Of a stretch of DNA of 64,000 nucleotides, positions 16,275 to 25,402 are shown in pieces. Source of the stretch: Terriglobia bacterium. Its GTDB lineage: Bacteria > Acidobacteriota > Terriglobia > Bryobacterales > Bryobacteraceae. Location: NCBI GenBank assembly GCA_025363475.1, contig JANYDS010000029.1:1-64000 (forward strand), given 5' to 3'. The notes under the pieces were generated by a model. It searched no databases, was not told the origin of the DNA, and was given only the letters and a program-made list of their open reading frames with translations. Position numbers and translations under genes: made by a program. Within the stretch, counting starts at the first letter, position 1, and every line of letters begins with the position of its first letter.

Positions 16275-17036
16275 GTGGCAAGACAGAATCTGGGCCAGCA
16301 CTTTCTGGTCAAAGGCAAAACTCTCGACCGCATAGCTAAAGCTGTGTGCGGTGACCATACGGCTATGGTTCTTGAAATAGGGCCAGGCCGTGGGGCGCTG
16401 ACCGAACGTCTGGTGGCGAAGGCGGATCGCGTGGTGGCCATTGAACTGGATGAGGCGCTTGCGCTACAGGTACAAGACCGTTGGCCGGCAGTGGAAGTGA
16501 TGCAGGCGAATGCACTTCATGTCGACTGGAACCAGTGGGGCCCGGGCGTGCTGGTGGGCAACCTGCCCTATTACATCGCGACGCCGCTCATTGCCAAGTA
16601 TCTGCGCAATCCCGGCGCGCTCAGTCAGGCTGTCTTTCTCATTCAGAAAGAAGTGGCGGAACGCATCACCGCAACGCCTGGCAACCGTGAGTATGGTTAT
16701 CTGTCGGTTGAGTGCCAGCTCTTCGCTGAAGCCGAATATCTCTTTAACGTGGCCCCGGGGGCTTTTCAGCCGCCGCCTAAAGTGGATTCAGCGGTGATTC
16801 GGCTGACCCCGCGCACGGAAATCGCGGTACCCGATCCGGAGAAATTTCTTGGTTTCGTTTCGGTCTGTTTCCGTCAGAAACGCAAGACGCTAAGAAACAA
16901 TCTGGCCGCCGCTTACGCTCCGGAATCTTACGAAGGGTTACCGGAAATGTCCCGCCGCGCCGAGCAACTTACAGTGGCTGAGTTTGCCAGCCTCTTTGCG
17001 CGGGTCGTTACGCCGGGACCTGTAACTCCGGCATAG
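16275..17036 (+). CDS. rsmA: 16S rRNA dimethyladenosine transferase RsmA (KsgA)
   Basis: Dimethylates the two adjacent adenines in the loop near the 3' end of 16S rRNA during small-subunit maturation. Diagnostic segments are GQHFLV at the N-terminus, SAM motif I VLEIGPGRGALTERL, the acidic IELDEAL, and the catalytic NLPYYIATPLI motif. FQPPPKVDSAVI and CFRQKRKTLRNNL follow, as in the family. The 253-residue length is normal. A GTG start at 16275 puts the GQHFLV motif at residue 7 as usual. It lies 12 bases after the anti-sigma gene, probably co-transcribed. Confidence 0.95.
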   Translation: MARQNLGQHFLVKGKTLDRIAKAVCGDHTAMVLEIGPGRGALTERLVAKADRVVAIELDEALALQVQDRWPAVEVMQANALHVDWNQWGPGVLVGNLPYYIATPLIAKYLRNPGALSQAVFLIQKEVAERITATPGNREYGYLSVECQLFAEAEYLFNVAPGAFQPPPKVDSAVIRLTPRTEIAVPDPEKFLGFVSVCFRQKRKTLRNNLAAAYAPESYEGLPEMSRRAEQLTVAEFASLFARVVTPGPVTPA

Positions 17037-18507
17037 GCTTCGCCTGAAACAACAGCCTGCACGGCTTGGCGATGGCGCGGGCGATCCAGTTGGCTTTGCG
17101 TGCGCTGTCCGTTGAGATTCCGGTCTTGGCATACATCTGCCGGTAGAGCCGTGAGATCAGCACAAACGCCAGTCGGCCCTTTATGTTGGGCACGCACCGT
17201 GACCGGTGCCAGATGGCGCTCCAGTCATAGAACTGATCCCAGACCGCCTGCGTGCGTTCGCGGATTTCATCGGAACTCATTGATTCATGCGGCGTCATCA
17301 TCTTTGGCCGCTTCTGCGAGGGTATGAGCCAATATCGCGTTATGGGCACGCCGTCGACCATTTGCGGATCAACCGACTGCGCTTTTTCCCATTTCTGAAA
17401 ATCGACGGTGCCGGGAAATGGCGTCATCATCACAAACTGGGCGAACGTAACATCAGCTTGTTTCGCCAGCGCCACGGTGGCATCAAACGTATCCGGCTTA
17501 TCTGTAGGCAGGCCGAAAATGAAAGACCCCAGCACATGCACGCCATGTTCGCGGAACGTTTTCAACTGCTTCACCAGACCATCACCGGAGTAGTTGAAAT
17601 CCTTGAAGACAGCTTTCAGGCCTTCGGCCGTTACAGCTTCAACGCCCACCAGCGCGCCTTTGATATTGGCTTTCTTCATGGCATCCAGGAACTCAAGATC
17701 TTCGGCCGCCTCCATGGTGATCTGAGTGAAGAAGATCATGTCTTTGGGCAACTGCGACAGGCGTTCCATCAGCACGAAGCGTTCATTGCGGATGCCTGTC
17801 AGGGTCGCAATACGCTCGGCATTTCCCTGCTGTTCCGCAAGGCGGAGGTCGGTTTTGGTGACCGGGTAGAAGTTGTCATCGGCCAGGGCGATAAAGCGAA
17901 AGCCCTTGCGCCGCAACGCCACAATCTCTTCAATAACGCCGTCAGATGCTCGCTGACGGGGCTTTTGCCCGTCGGTCCGCCAGACTGAACAGAACGAACA
18001 GTGTTTGGCACAGCCGCGTACCGTCTGCACGGACGCCCACATGTAACTGGCGTCCGGCATTAAATCCCAGCGTGCTGCCAGAAACTGATCTGCTTCAATT
18101 CTGCCGCCGTCGTAAACCGGATTCAGCGAACCGCGTACGCAGTCAGTCAGCACTTCGCCCCAGGCTACATCTCCATCGCCTTTGACGACTGCGCTCGCGC
18201 CGCCTCTTTCCAGTGCTTCTTCCGGGTAGAGAGTCGCGTGGATTCCGCCGTAGATCACAGTCGCGCCCAAGGCTTTGGCCAGGTTGCCCACTTCATACCC
18301 GCGCAGTGCATTGCCGGTATGAATGCCGATGCCTACAATATCGCCCGCATGAATGGTTTCGGGGAGCAGTTGCTCCAGTGTCTCGTCACAGATAACGGCG
18401 TCTCCGAAGGCTTTCGGTGTCGCCGCCGCCAGGACGTATAACCAGCGTGGCGTGATGACTGCCGTGCCAAACGACATGTCGCTCGGGTTGATCAGGTGAA
18501 CGCGCAT
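17008..18507 (-). CDS. B12-binding-domain radical SAM protein, possible hopanoid methylase (HpnR/HpnP-like)
   Basis: About 499 residues. The N-terminal half has the fold and motifs of a cobalamin-binding domain as found in class B radical SAM methylases (IVGIGIHTGNALRGYE, VIYGGIHATLYPEEAL, VVKGDGD). The radical SAM motif is CAKHCSFC (Cys-x3-Cys-x2-Cys). The C-terminal third has RERTQAVWDQFYDWSAIW. Known hopanoid C-3 and C-2 methylases share this architecture, and the gene is last in a hopanoid operon, which suggests methylation of the hopanoid skeleton. A different substrate cannot be excluded. ATG 18507 is preferred over a TTG at 18567 because conserved sequence begins MRVHLINPSD. It overlaps rsmA by 29 bases tail to tail. 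Confidence 0.75.
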   Translation of the reverse strand: MRVHLINPSDMSFGTAVITPRWLYVLAAATPKAFGDAVICDETLEQLLPETIHAGDIVGIGIHTGNALRGYEVGNLAKALGATVIYGGIHATLYPEEALERGGASAVVKGDGDVAWGEVLTDCVRGSLNPVYDGGRIEADQFLAARWDLMPDASYMWASVQTVRGCAKHCSFCSVWRTDGQKPRQRASDGVIEEIVALRRKGFRFIALADDNFYPVTKTDLRLAEQQGNAERIATLTGIRNERFVLMERLSQLPKDMIFFTQITMEAAEDLEFLDAMKKANIKGALVGVEAVTAEGLKAVFKDFNYSGDGLVKQLKTFREHGVHVLGSFIFGLPTDKPDTFDATVALAKQADVTFAQFVMMTPFPGTVDFQKWEKAQSVDPQMVDGVPITRYWLIPSQKRPKMMTPHESMSSDEIRERTQAVWDQFYDWSAIWHRSRCVPNIKGRLAFVLISRLYRQMYAKTGISTDSARKANWIARAIAKPCRLLFQAKPMPELQVPA

Positions 18508-18607
18508 CCCCGCAGGGATGGTGATCGGGGCGCTAGACGGGGCAATGCCGATATGGGTGAGGTTCAAACAAGGGGTCCCCCTGACCGCATAAAGATGGTA
18601 TCAAGAA

Positions 18608-19467: not shown

Positions 19468-20391
19468 TTATGCCGCACGGGCGAAGGCAGCCCGCGCCAC
19501 AGCGCTGATCAGCAACCCTACCCGCTCTACTTTCGAAACTGTTGGACGGCGTGACAGCACGTCGTACTTCTGTTGCTCAATCTTGTCCAGAATTCGCATT
19601 CCGCCCCGGCTGAATAATTCGAGATCTACGGCCAGTCGGCGGTCCACCCGGCGGGCCAGTGGGAGGCCGGTTAGAAACAGCGTACGAGCGCGGTCCACTG
19701 CTTCGCGCATGATGTTTTCAAAGCGCTGGTCAAAGCGGCGGGCGAACAGATCTTCCACCGTGTAGTTGTATTTGGTGAGCAGGTCGAGTGGCAGATAGAC
19801 GCGGTCTTTGAGCTGGTCAACCGTCACATCCTGCCAGAAATTGGCCAGTTGCAGGGCGGTGCAGGTTGCGTCTGACAATGTCTGCCGCGCGGGATCGGAA
19901 TAGCCGCAAAGATAGAGCACCAGACGGCCTACGGGGTTCGCTGAACAGACGCAATATTCCATGACGTCGTCCCACGTTTGATAGCGAGTTACGGTCTGGT
20001 CCTGAATGAAGGCGCGGATCAAATCGGCAAAGGGTTGTTTAGGGATTTTGTACTTTGCAGCGGTGCTTTGAAGTGCTAGAAACACGGGGTGGCTGGCCCC
20101 GGCACCGTCATACATTCTGTTGAGTTCGCCTTGCCACCAGTGCAGCAGGCGCAGGCTTTCAACGGGATCGCCGATTTCATCCGCAAGGTCGTCAGCCCAA
20201 CGGCAGTAGGAATAGACGTTGTAGAAATCCTGATGCAGATGCTTCGGCAGCAGGAAGCTGACGACGTGGAAATTTTCGTAATGACTGGTGGCAAGCCAGC
20301 GCGTGTACTGCAGCGCTTCGGCTTCCGTCCACTCCCGTGCCATCGCCTCTTTGCTCAGAGCGAAGTCGCGGGGAAGAAGATACCCGTTCAT
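19468..20391 (-). CDS. hpnC: Hydroxysqualene synthase HpnC
   Basis: Second trans-isoprenyl-diphosphate enzyme of the squalene route, turning presqualene diphosphate into hydroxysqualene. Visible are YENFHVVSFLLPK at the N-terminus, the first aspartate motif YCRWADDLADE and the second NFWQDVTVDQLKDR. The 307-residue length is normal for HpnC. Its start overlaps the stop of the upstream dehydrogenase by four bases, so translation is coupled to that gene. HpnD follows after five bases. The pairing of HpnC with HpnD is what identifies both as hopanoid/squalene rather than carotenoid enzymes. Confidence 0.9.
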   Translation of the reverse strand: MNGYLLPRDFALSKEAMAREWTEAEALQYTRWLATSHYENFHVVSFLLPKHLHQDFYNVYSYCRWADDLADEIGDPVESLRLLHWWQGELNRMYDGAGASHPVFLALQSTAAKYKIPKQPFADLIRAFIQDQTVTRYQTWDDVMEYCVCSANPVGRLVLYLCGYSDPARQTLSDATCTALQLANFWQDVTVDQLKDRVYLPLDLLTKYNYTVEDLFARRFDQRFENIMREAVDRARTLFLTGLPLARRVDRRLAVDLELFSRGGMRILDKIEQQKYDVLSRRPTVSKVERVGLLISAVARAAFARAA

Positions 20392-21428
20392 GGAATGATC
20401 GCAGTCTTGAGCGGGCCGCAGCCCTCAATGAGGCGGAACAAAACGTTCGACAAGCTGGCCAGCGGTTCGTGCGCCATGACAAAATCAACGGCACGCACGC
20501 CGCCTGATTCGAGGATGTCCAGAGCGTCGCGGAAGGCGCGGGGCGTATGGTGGAAACTTGCCTTACAGGTGATTTCGGAGTAATGCAGCAGGTCGCTGTC
20601 GAGTTCCAGCTGGGTGCCGCTGGGGGGGCCGCCAAAGAAATTGACGACACCGCCGCGGCGCAGCATAGCCATAGGCCAGCGCCACGTTTCCGGTTTGCCT
20701 ACGGCTTCGATGACGATATCCGCGCCGCGTCCGCCGGTTAGCTCGCGAACCGCCCCAACCGGATCAGGCGTTTCTTCCGTCGCAATTACCCGGTCCGCGC
20801 CCAGATGCAGGGTGTGTTCCAGCTTTTCGCGTCGCCGGCCGATTGCGATTACCTGTGCGCCGCGCAGTTTGGCCAGCCGCACAAACATAGAGCCGATAGG
20901 ACCCACGCCAATGACGACAACCTTGTCGCCCGCTTCAATTCCGGTATCTTCGAGACCCTTGGAAACACAAGCCAGAGGCTCTGCCATTGCGGCATCCTCA
21001 TACGTCAGATGTTCGGCAATTTCGTAAGTGTTGCGTTCCACGATGCGAGCCGGAATGCGGATGAACTCCGCGTAAGCACCGTTGTTGAAGAGCAGATCTT
21101 CGCAAAGATTGACGCGACCGCGCAGGCAATAGAAGCACTGGAGGCAGGGCGCTGAATTCGCCGCTACAACACGCTGGCCCACCTGAAACCGGGTGACGCC
21201 ATCGCCCATTGCAACTACGTCTCCGGCAAATTCATGGCCGAAAAGAGCTGGCGGGACAATCATGCGCGCGTGGTAGCCACGCAGAAATACTTTTAGATCG
21301 GTACCGCAGGTGAGGGCAGTGCGTACACGCACCAAAAGTTCACCAGGGCCAATTGACGGGATCGGAACCTGTTCCAGAGACAGGTGTTCCTTTCCGTAAA
21401 GTACTGCCGCGAGCATGGTGGACTTCAA
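20388..21428 (-). CDS. Zinc-type medium-chain dehydrogenase in the hopanoid operon (second of two)
   Basis: MDR-family oxidoreductase of 346 residues. Catalytic zinc ligands are suggested by TCGTDLK and GHEFAG; the structural zinc site is CLQCFYC plus a fourth Cys seven residues on. The cofactor motif is GVGPIGSMFVRLA, and strand 2 ends AIGRRREK, where Gly followed by three Arg favours NADP(H). Four-base overlaps with hpnC downstream and the other dehydrogenase upstream indicate one coupled operon. The substrate is unknown; sugar, polyol or hopanoid side-chain carbonyl reduction is possible. The paralogue next door shares architecture but not cofactor signature. Confidence 0.85.
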   Translation of the reverse strand: MKSTMLAAVLYGKEHLSLEQVPIPSIGPGELLVRVRTALTCGTDLKVFLRGYHARMIVPPALFGHEFAGDVVAMGDGVTRFQVGQRVVAANSAPCLQCFYCLRGRVNLCEDLLFNNGAYAEFIRIPARIVERNTYEIAEHLTYEDAAMAEPLACVSKGLEDTGIEAGDKVVVIGVGPIGSMFVRLAKLRGAQVIAIGRRREKLEHTLHLGADRVIATEETPDPVGAVRELTGGRGADIVIEAVGKPETWRWPMAMLRRGGVVNFFGGPPSGTQLELDSDLLHYSEITCKASFHHTPRAFRDALDILESGGVRAVDFVMAHEPLASLSNVLFRLIEGCGPLKTAIIP

Positions 21429-22507
21429 CCTGACGTTTCCTGTGGACTCACTATTATTTTCAGCGGACTCTCGCCCGGAAATTCTCCCGGGTGAGTAGCC
21501 AGACGGAAAGCAAACGCTATTTTATCAAGCGGCACGCGGTGAGAGATGAGGAGATGAAGCGGAAGCTTGCCGCCGAACACCAGATCCACCCCCAGCTTCT
21601 GAATATCGACGGATGCGCTGTAGGAACCCAGCAGCATTCGCTCACCCACGCAGATGGAAGCGCCCGAGAGTTCGATCCGTTCTTTGTCGCTGGTCTGGGC
21701 GAAGAGCATGATCTTTGCGCCTGGCCTGGATGAAGCCAATGCTTCTTCGACGAGGCCCTTTACGTTGGTGGCCACGAAGACCATATCTGCGCCGCGTCCT
21801 TCGGTGAGTTCGCGAAGTGTGGCTGCGACATCGGTTGTGCGGGGGTCAGCTGCAACTTGGGCTCCGGACTGGCGGGAGAGATCGAGCCGCATGGGGATGG
21901 TGTCTGTTGCGACTACGGTACAGCCGCGCAGTTTCAGGAGCATGGTGAAGATGAGGCCGATCGGGCCCTGCCCCTGGACCAGAACGACATCGCCAGGCTG
22001 CGGGTTGCATTGATCTACTGCCTTGACGCAAGTGTTGACAGGCTCAACGAAAGAGGCCACCTCGAAAGAGACGCCGTCAGGAATTTTCTCGACACCGCGT
22101 TCAACAATCCAATCCATAACGCGGACATATTGGGCAAAGCCGCCGCCTGCGGGTTCGAAGCCCGCGGTTACGCCGACTTTTTTATAGACCGCGCACTGGG
22201 CGTAGAGCTTGCGGGCGCAGTAGAAGCATTCGCCGCAGGGGATGTGGTGGAAAACGATTACGCGGTCGCCCGGCTGGAATTTGGTTACGCGGCTGCCTGT
22301 TGCGGCGACTACGCCCGCAGTCTCGTGCCCGTAAATCCGGGGCGGCGTCAGCAGGTTGTATTCGATCTTCTTGAGATCCGTGTGGCAGACGCCGCAGGCT
22401 TCTACGCGAATGAGGATTTCGCCTTCGCCGATGACCGGGGTGGCTACCTCATCAACGGAGACTTGGCTTTCACCACGGTAGACGGCGGCGCGCATGGTTT
22501 GCGGCAT
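21425..22507 (-). CDS. Zinc-type medium-chain dehydrogenase in the hopanoid operon (first of two)
   Basis: MDR-family oxidoreductase of about 360 residues. Zinc ligands appear in GVCHTDLKK and GHETAG; the structural site is CGECFYC with a further Cys in LYAQC. The cofactor motif is GQGPIGLIFTMLL, and strand 2 ends VVATDTIP, where Asp favours NAD(H). A longer open frame to 22618 would run into hpnG. I use the ATG at 22507, one base after the hpnG stop. It overlaps the next dehydrogenase by four bases. Embedded between hpnG and hpnC, it probably acts on a hopanoid or its precursor; this is inference from context. Confidence 0.85.
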   Translation of the reverse strand: MPQTMRAAVYRGESQVSVDEVATPVIGEGEILIRVEACGVCHTDLKKIEYNLLTPPRIYGHETAGVVAATGSRVTKFQPGDRVIVFHHIPCGECFYCARKLYAQCAVYKKVGVTAGFEPAGGGFAQYVRVMDWIVERGVEKIPDGVSFEVASFVEPVNTCVKAVDQCNPQPGDVVLVQGQGPIGLIFTMLLKLRGCTVVATDTIPMRLDLSRQSGAQVAADPRTTDVAATLRELTEGRGADMVFVATNVKGLVEEALASSRPGAKIMLFAQTSDKERIELSGASICVGERMLLGSYSASVDIQKLGVDLVFGGKLPLHLLISHRVPLDKIAFAFRLATHPGEFPGESPLKIIVSPQETSG

Positions 22508-24258: not shown

Positions 24259-25402
24259 TCAGTAAGTGTGAGACGCGTGTGCGCGGCGAATGAGCCGGTT
24301 TTCCATGAAGCGCCACGACAACTGAGCCAAAAGAAGAGTGATGCCTGCGGACAAAAGCACAGAAGAAGCAACCCACAACGGGTTCAGGCGTCGACCAAAT
24401 GAGGGGAGGAGCGCTGCCACCAGACCGTGAACTCCCTGGTGAAAGATATACGCGCCATAAGAGACTTTGCCGAGGTATTGAAGGGGCGACAACGCCAGCG
24501 CGAGGCCGAGGTGTCGCGGAGGGCACGAAACAGACAGCAGCACGAGCAGCGCAAAGAAGGCTGCAAGGACCGTGAACCTATCAAGTGCACGGTTATCGAG
24601 CACCGCGGGGAAGTAAGAGTCGACAGCCACGATGAGAAACAGGAATCCGCAGGCGCCTGATAGCAGGCGTGAGTGGGAAGTAATCCAGAGCCACCACGTC
24701 TGATTGCGCAGAACTAGCGCAAGAATGACCCCCCACGCCAGCCCATCGAGCCGAAATGCCGTGGCAAAGGCCCAGCCTGCGTTTATTATGTGGATTCGCG
24801 GCAAGAAGAAGGTGGTGGCCGACCGGCGAGAGGACAAAGGATGGCCGCTGACAAGCAGAAGAGAACGGAACGGCTCAAAATCTTATGATCAGCGGGAGCA
24901 CGGCGTAGAACTGCTCTTCGATGGCCAGGGACCAAGACATGCCAAGCCAGCCAGGAAGGTCTAAGTTCAGCCAGAGCGGTGCGTTGTTCTGGAGAAACAG
25001 GGGGTAGAGCCAGCCGGGGACGGAGGTCTGGAAGAGTGCGGTGCCGAGTCTGTGGTCAAGATCAAAATCGCGACCCACCCAGTACAGCCCGAGCCAGCCG
25101 AAATAGAGTGGGAAAATGCGGTGGATGCGCCGGGCGTAGAAGGTTGAAAAAAAGCGGCGGGAATGTCTGGAATCGACCAGTATGCCCGTGATCAGGAAAC
25201 CGGACAGAACAAAGAACAGGTCGACACCACTCCAGAACAAATGCAGACTCTGCGTGAGGAGTCCCCAAAGCGGATTGCGGGGGGAGCCGATGGAACCGAC
25301 GTAGTGAAAGACGAGCACCATCAGGATGGCGATGCCCCGAAGGCCGTCGATTTCGATAATTCTGCCGTTAAGCTTTTGATTGCGCCAATCGGTACTGGTC
25401 AC
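24259..25402 (-). pseudogene. Acyltransferase 3 family (OafA-like) membrane protein with a frameshift
   Basis: The N-terminal part from 25402 begins with EIDGLRGIAILMVLVFHYVG and continues through FSGFLITG-like and YARRIHRIFPLY segments to SWSLAIEEQFYAVLPLIIRF, then hits TGA. The remaining membrane helices continue in a second frame down to 24259 (FRLDGLAWGVILAL, YLGKVSYGAYIFHQG). A run of four A on the plus strand at 24877-24880 marks the junction; removing one base would join the parts into 381 codons, the normal length. These enzymes O-acylate sugars or lipids at the membrane. Either a pseudogene or an indel error. It starts four bases after the E1 stop. Confidence 0.85.

Follow-up and report, generated by a model that had tools for sequence, protein, structure and literature searches.

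What do two zinc-dependent dehydrogenases do inside a hopanoid operon? Bacteriohopanepolyols (BHPs) form a major class of membrane lipids in bacteria and serve as biomarkers in geology. No gene has been assigned to the enzyme that opens ribosylhopane into bacteriohopanetetrol (BHT). In a stretch of 64,000 nucleotides from a Terriglobia bacterium (contig JANYDS010000029.1, positions 1 to 64,000; hereafter the window), two genes of the medium-chain dehydrogenase/reductase (MDR) family lie between hpnG and hpnC. We call them MDR1 and MDR2. An earlier note on this DNA stated that the BHT-forming reductase is unassigned, and put both genes forward as candidates for that or another polyol step. The statement holds: as of November 2025 the step had no assigned enzyme (PMC12583986), and our literature search found no later gene assignment for the step. 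Here we propose that MDR1 and MDR2 probably act in hopanoid side-chain redox chemistry. That one of them is the reductase converting ribosylhopane to BHT is our best single guess from the sequences, and a tentative one. With MDR1 and MDR2, a large group of soil bacteria offers specific candidates that can be tested.

MDR1 occurs together with the side-chain gene hpnH. In a census of 197 acidobacterial genomes from 63 families (family codes begin with f and genome codes with G), strong MDR1 matches are present in 34 genomes, 33 of which also encode HpnH. HpnH itself occurs in 54, so that 21 genomes have HpnH alone, 1 has MDR1 alone and 142 have neither. Counted by family, MDR1 is found in 5 of the 13 HpnH-positive families and 0 of the 50 HpnH-negative families (Fisher 1.8e-4). 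HpnC is present in many genomes without HpnH. Among the HpnC-positive genomes, MDR2 accompanies HpnH in 24 of 29 and is found in none of the 28 genomes (14 families) without HpnH. Eleven further genomes have MDR2 and no HpnC over the cut-off: nine of f27 (eight with HpnH), one of f58 (without HpnH) and G123 of f2 (with HpnH). MDR2 tracks HpnH, not HpnC, and so goes with the side-chain genes even though it sits beside hpnC. Because shc and hpnH co-occur in these genomes, the role could also be tied to the hopane skeleton itself.

The gene order is conserved as well. We compared the best 80 of 551 MDR1 relatives from 84,980 species genomes, all 80 of them from Acidobacteriota and mostly from Bryobacterales, counting loci whose contig reaches far enough. 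At every such locus MDR1 has hpnG before it (78 of 78) and MDR2 after it (72 of 72), and next after MDR2 comes hpnC (70 of 70). The arrangement hpnG-MDR1-MDR2-hpnC is not chance. Since the loci were picked by similarity to MDR1, these fractions show conservation within the clade, not prevalence. Given these relatives, the window most likely comes from Bryobacterales. The relatives' operon reads ispA-shc-(hpnH)-hpnA-hpnG-MDR1-MDR2-hpnC-hpnD. The corresponding genes of the window, with NCBIfam scores and cut-offs, are:

24169-23195, minus strand: hpnA, hopanoid-associated SDR (short-chain dehydrogenase/reductase; 'sugar epimerase'); TIGR03466, 458.9 bits, above the cut-off of 367.65
23198-22509, minus strand: hpnG, divergent adenosylhopane nucleosidase/phosphorylase-like gene; best match TIGR03468, 134.2 bits, below the cut-off of 187.1
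22507-21425, minus strand: MDR1, zinc-dependent MDR dehydrogenase, NAD(H)-type, 360 residues, ATG start; ADH_N and ADH_zinc_N domains
21416 (ATG, 342 residues) or 21428 (TTG, 346 residues) to 20388, minus strand: MDR2, zinc-dependent MDR dehydrogenase, NADP(H)-type; ADH_N and ADH_zinc_N domains
20391-19468, minus strand: hpnC, hydroxysqualene synthase; TIGR03464, 341.0 bits, above the cut-off of 250.45
19462-18608, minus strand: hpnD, presqualene diphosphate synthase; best match TIGR03465, 256.4 bits, just below the cut-off of 278.6

The earlier note described a tight minus-strand run in which MDR1 and MDR2 overlap by four bases. Order and near-zero spacing stand: hpnA and hpnG overlap by 4 nt, 1 nt separates hpnG from MDR1, MDR2 and hpnC overlap by 4 nt, and 5 nt lie between hpnC and hpnD. 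The overlap of MDR1 with MDR2 exists only with the TTG start; with the ATG at 21416 there is an 8-nt gap. This ATG is the start kept in orthologues (M1 is invariant in 35 sequences), so the overlap is probably not real. In most relatives the two genes are 5–20 nt apart.

The pair is not obligate. In f2, a family of the same class as the window whose label "Acidobacteriaceae-type" rests on cluster architecture, MDR1 and MDR2 are adjacent in 7 of 20 genomes and apart in 13, all 13 of which have both. The word 'coupled', used of the two genes earlier, is therefore too strong. In the split genomes MDR1 stays with shc-hpnH-hpnA-hpnG. Family f27 (L065-L073) has a different order, hpnA-MDR1-MDR2-hpnD, with hpnA directly before MDR1, no hpnG between them and mostly no hpnC. 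HpnG was counted with the family model and a lenient cut-off, the window protein being too divergent to serve as a single-sequence query. The f27 matches, found elsewhere in the genome, mostly look like generic methylthioadenosine/S-adenosylhomocysteine nucleosidases, and HpnG may therefore be missing from this family. Lysine/aspartate-pathway genes come after hpnD at several f27 loci. Selenocysteine in the f27 MDR1 homologues was considered and rejected: the apparent internal TGA is the terminal stop codon drawn into the alignment.

Both proteins score above the Pfam gathering threshold for ADH_N and ADH_zinc_N (91.1 and 69.1 bits for MDR1; 88.0 and 97.3 bits for MDR2), and they are 32–34% identical to each other. 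The zinc ligands are complete in MDR1 (C41/H61/E62/E155 and C91/C94/C97/C105) and in MDR2 (C37/H61/E62/E146 and C91/C94/C97/C105), and both the structural Cys4 and the catalytic ligands are conserved in orthologues. The cofactor sites differ. MDR1 has Asp202 after strand beta-2 (..VVATD..), where its orthologues have Asp or, in one case, Glu. MDR2 has Gly-Arg-Arg-Arg (..VIAIGRRRE..); nearly all of its orthologues carry at least one Lys or Arg after beta-2, and R194 and R195 are invariant in the Bryobacterales set. Indeed, the earlier assignment of an NAD(H)-type site to MDR1 and an NADP(H)-type site to MDR2 was correct.

AlphaFold models (pLDDT 93.1 for MDR1 and 89.2 for MDR2) confirm the MDR fold, with Z about 38–42 over 324–346 residues. 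The closest solved structures (Z about 39–42) are first 4ej6/4ejm, the latter NADP-bound, and then threonine dehydrogenase and sorbitol dehydrogenase/ketose reductase. MDR1 and MDR2 resemble polyol-dehydrogenase-type zinc MDRs in fold (1e3j, sorbitol dehydrogenase/ketose reductase; 2dfv and 2dq4, L-threonine 3-dehydrogenase; the uncharacterised 4ej6/4ejm), and share with them the structural Cys4, a catalytic Cys/His/Glu plus Glu, and a Rossmann cofactor site. However, structural-alignment identity is just 22–32%, and the scores lie far below the NCBIfam equivalog cut-offs, the best being 161.5 bits for IolM (cut-off 450) and 160 bits for Tdh (cut-off 458). On those cut-offs we rejected L-threonine 3-dehydrogenase and scyllo-inosose 3-dehydrogenase. 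Neither the fold comparison nor the sequence of MDR1 and MDR2 indicates a substrate.

A tree of 57 acidobacterial MDRs joins operon MDR1 with a remote group, MDR1' (support 95/89), and MDR2 with MDR2' (100/100). The MDR1 and MDR2 groups are in turn joined to each other (100/98), apart from other MDRs; an earlier tree with thinner outgroups agrees. On these trees MDR1 and MDR2 are sister subfamilies. MDR1' and MDR2' are themselves adjacent in f30 (G046, G057), f43 (G070, G191) and f58 (G117), and f37 (G059) has a closer MDR1/MDR2-like pair that is not in the hpn operon. Among the remote pairs, those of f30 and f58 keep the contrast between NAD-type and NADP-type sites; in f43 it is lost, MDR2' having an NAD-like Asp. 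The tree branches are long, and the simplest reading is that an old tandem pair later joined the hopanoid operon.

The two genes have been seen before. A 2017 survey of Acidobacteria (Sinninghe Damste et al. 2017, PMC5462960) describes a cluster C, hpnA-hpnG-ug1, and a cluster A, ug2-hpnC-hpnD-hpnE; its text offers no reaction for either ug gene. By position, MDR1 is ug1, directly after hpnG, and MDR2 is ug2, directly before hpnC and likewise a zinc alcohol dehydrogenase of about 350 residues. The gene positions were thus already published in part. Beyond what the survey says of ug1 and ug2, we place them in two sister MDR subfamilies whose predicted cofactors differ, probably of tandem origin, associated with HpnH and not HpnC, paired but not obligately so, and absent, in the case of MDR1, from a set of HpnH-positive genomes.

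How might such enzymes serve the pathway? HpnH adds adenosine and HpnG takes off adenine; MDR1 and MDR2 would then act on the C35 side chain, as zinc-dependent polyol/aldose dehydrogenases of the hopanoid pathway in Terriglobia-type Acidobacteria. At least one of them would reduce the aldehyde carbon (C-35) of ribosylhopane, giving BHT. MDR2, with its NADP(H)-type pocket, would be the likelier reductase, and MDR1, with its NAD(H)-type pocket, might share in the reduction or oxidise a side-chain hydroxyl. Linkage to hpnA-hpnG, co-occurrence with HpnH, polyol-type zinc sites and differing cofactors all speak for the candidacy first put forward in the earlier note. Also in favour, strains of SD1 and SD3, the subdivisions with ug1 in cluster C, make tetra- and partly pentafunctional BHPs (PMC5462960). 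A ribosylhopane-reducing activity has been detected in an extract of Methylobacterium organophilum (Bodlenner et al. 2015, as cited in PMC12583986). It is the reaction proposed here for MDR1 and MDR2, and no gene has been assigned to the extract activity.

Several points weigh against this reading. The reduction in the Methylobacterium extract reportedly used NADPH, and MDR1 looks NAD-type. MDR1 is missing from 21 HpnH-positive genomes (8 families and G007), most of which have hpnA-hpnG operons; most of the families carry shc-hpnH-hpnA-hpnG, several with adjoining mevalonate genes. It was seen in the hpnG operon in three families only (f1, f2 and f48). Remote relatives occur in HpnH-negative genomes (f43, f58), and in the split f2 genomes MDR2 stands at the head of hpnC-hpnD at all 11 separate loci examined. 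Three f30 genomes (G085, G109 and G149), each with two replicons of about 2.6–2.7 and 1.0 Mb, have only MDR1'/MDR2', outside the hpn operons. By these replicon sizes, which are those of C. thermophilum, the genomes are probably Chloracidobacterium-like. Chloracidobacterium, in turn, is a known BHT producer, and HpnA had been named earlier as a candidate for this step (both PMC5462960). Finally, the alphaproteobacterial hpn genes have no obvious further candidate genes alongside them (PMC12583986).

Since MDR1 is absent from 21 HpnH-positive genomes, it is not a universal ribosylhopane reductase; nor, given that other acidobacterial families have neither gene in their shc-hpnH-hpnA-hpnG operons, do MDR1 and MDR2 provide a general one. 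The earlier note had held that absence from most acidobacterial hpnG operons would count against the two genes. By genome count that is not what we found; by family count, with MDR1 in 5 of 13, it nearly is. If MDR1 is a ribosylhopane reductase, other lineages likely use different, non-orthologous enzymes. Some lineages have MDR1/MDR2 and others do not, a division suggesting that side-chain finishing may have arisen on more than one occasion; if so, the use of BHP types as markers would be affected.

Other readings share parts of this evidence. We consider it rather unlikely that the two enzymes form a redox pair for epimerisation or rearrangement, in which MDR1 would use NAD+ to oxidise a carbinol of the side chain and MDR2 or HpnA would reduce the resulting ketone with NADPH; the two reactions would determine the stereochemistry or the hydroxylation pattern of acidobacterial BHPs. 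The sister subfamilies do stay neighbours in several families, the cofactor contrast is present in the operon copies and in the f30 and f58 remote pairs, and hpnA, MDR1 and MDR2 are contiguous in f27. However, the genes occupy separate loci in 13 of 20 f2 genomes, although they co-occur in each; the f43 MDR2' breaks the cofactor pattern; and our literature search turned up no data on the stereochemistry of acidobacterial BHT. Also conceivable, though unlikely, is that HpnA is the ribosylhopane reductase and the MDRs carry out later tailoring, for instance by providing HpnO with an aldehyde or by forming pentafunctional BHPs. HpnA, like the MDRs, is a predicted redox enzyme of the same operon and an earlier candidate for the same step; unlike them it is an SDR, a family unrelated to MDR, and it is present in MDR-less operons too. 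Its second NCBIfam match is SdmB of sterol demethylation. In the 2017 survey (PMC5462960), every acidobacterium that has shc, hpnH and hpnG also has hpnA, and its authors suggested HpnA for the conversion of ribosylhopane to BHT. Pentafunctional BHPs are made by five strains, of which two belong to SD3.

Quite doubtful is the idea that an ancient tandem pair, one sister using NAD and the other NADP, entered the Terriglobia operon and as a pair oxidises and re-reduces the C35 side chain with no net redox change, a lineage-specific finishing of acidobacterial BHPs unlike that of Proteobacteria. Less probable again is a general polyol/aldehyde dehydrogenase module captured by the operon, with no dedicated hopanoid substrate. 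Related adjacent pairs do occur in unrelated neighbourhoods (f30, f37, f43 and f58), in f43 and f58 without HpnH; however, operon position and HpnH co-occurrence are kept in at least three families (f1, f2 and f48) whose MDR1 proteins are just ~50% identical. Very improbable, lastly, is that MDR2 or both enzymes serve squalene synthesis or prenyl alcohol metabolism, such as farnesol/farnesal turnover, and owe their side-chain look to operon position: MDR2 does head hpnC-hpnD in the split f2 genomes and ug2 was grouped with hpnC-hpnD-hpnE in PMC5462960, but MDR2 is absent from all 28 HpnC-positive genomes that lack HpnH, f27 genomes with no HpnC above the cut-off do have it, and the squalene pathway has no missing step because hpnE lies on another contig of the same genome (463.8 bits, over the cut-off). 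That contig also led us to reject MDR2 as a substitute for a missing hpnE.

Among the HpnH-positive genomes without MDR1, two of f45 have an LLM/F420-type flavin oxidoreductase-like gene directly after hpnG (L113, 5752-6648, minus strand; L115, 9295-10194, plus strand), followed by a PLP (pyridoxal phosphate)-dependent decarboxylase-like gene. It is suggestive only that this would be another redox enzyme at the position taken by MDR1 in Terriglobia. G007 of f2 (L104) keeps shc and hpnH, and hpnA, hpnG, MDR1, MDR2 and hpnC were not detected there. This may be a block loss or an assembly gap, and we did not use it as evidence.

Around the operon of the window, a B12-binding radical SAM protein conserved in Acidobacteria is encoded 40 nt below hpnD (17008-18567, minus strand). 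We rejected it as a pathway member: strong relatives occur in 34 of the 197 genomes, many without HpnH, and the gene does not follow hpnD in related operons. Neither shc nor ispA adjoins hpnA. Upstream of hpnA, where relatives have shc, two open reading frames of 175 and 192 residues (24259-25402, minus strand) look by eye like a single acyltransferase-3-type gene split by a frameshift. The genome's own hpnH lies outside the operon, on contig C56 (L123, 18866-19819). It matches the hpnH type of f2 genomes (73–82% identical), and the in-operon hpnH of related Bryobacterales is mostly a type just 40–49% identical to it; replacement through transfer is possible.

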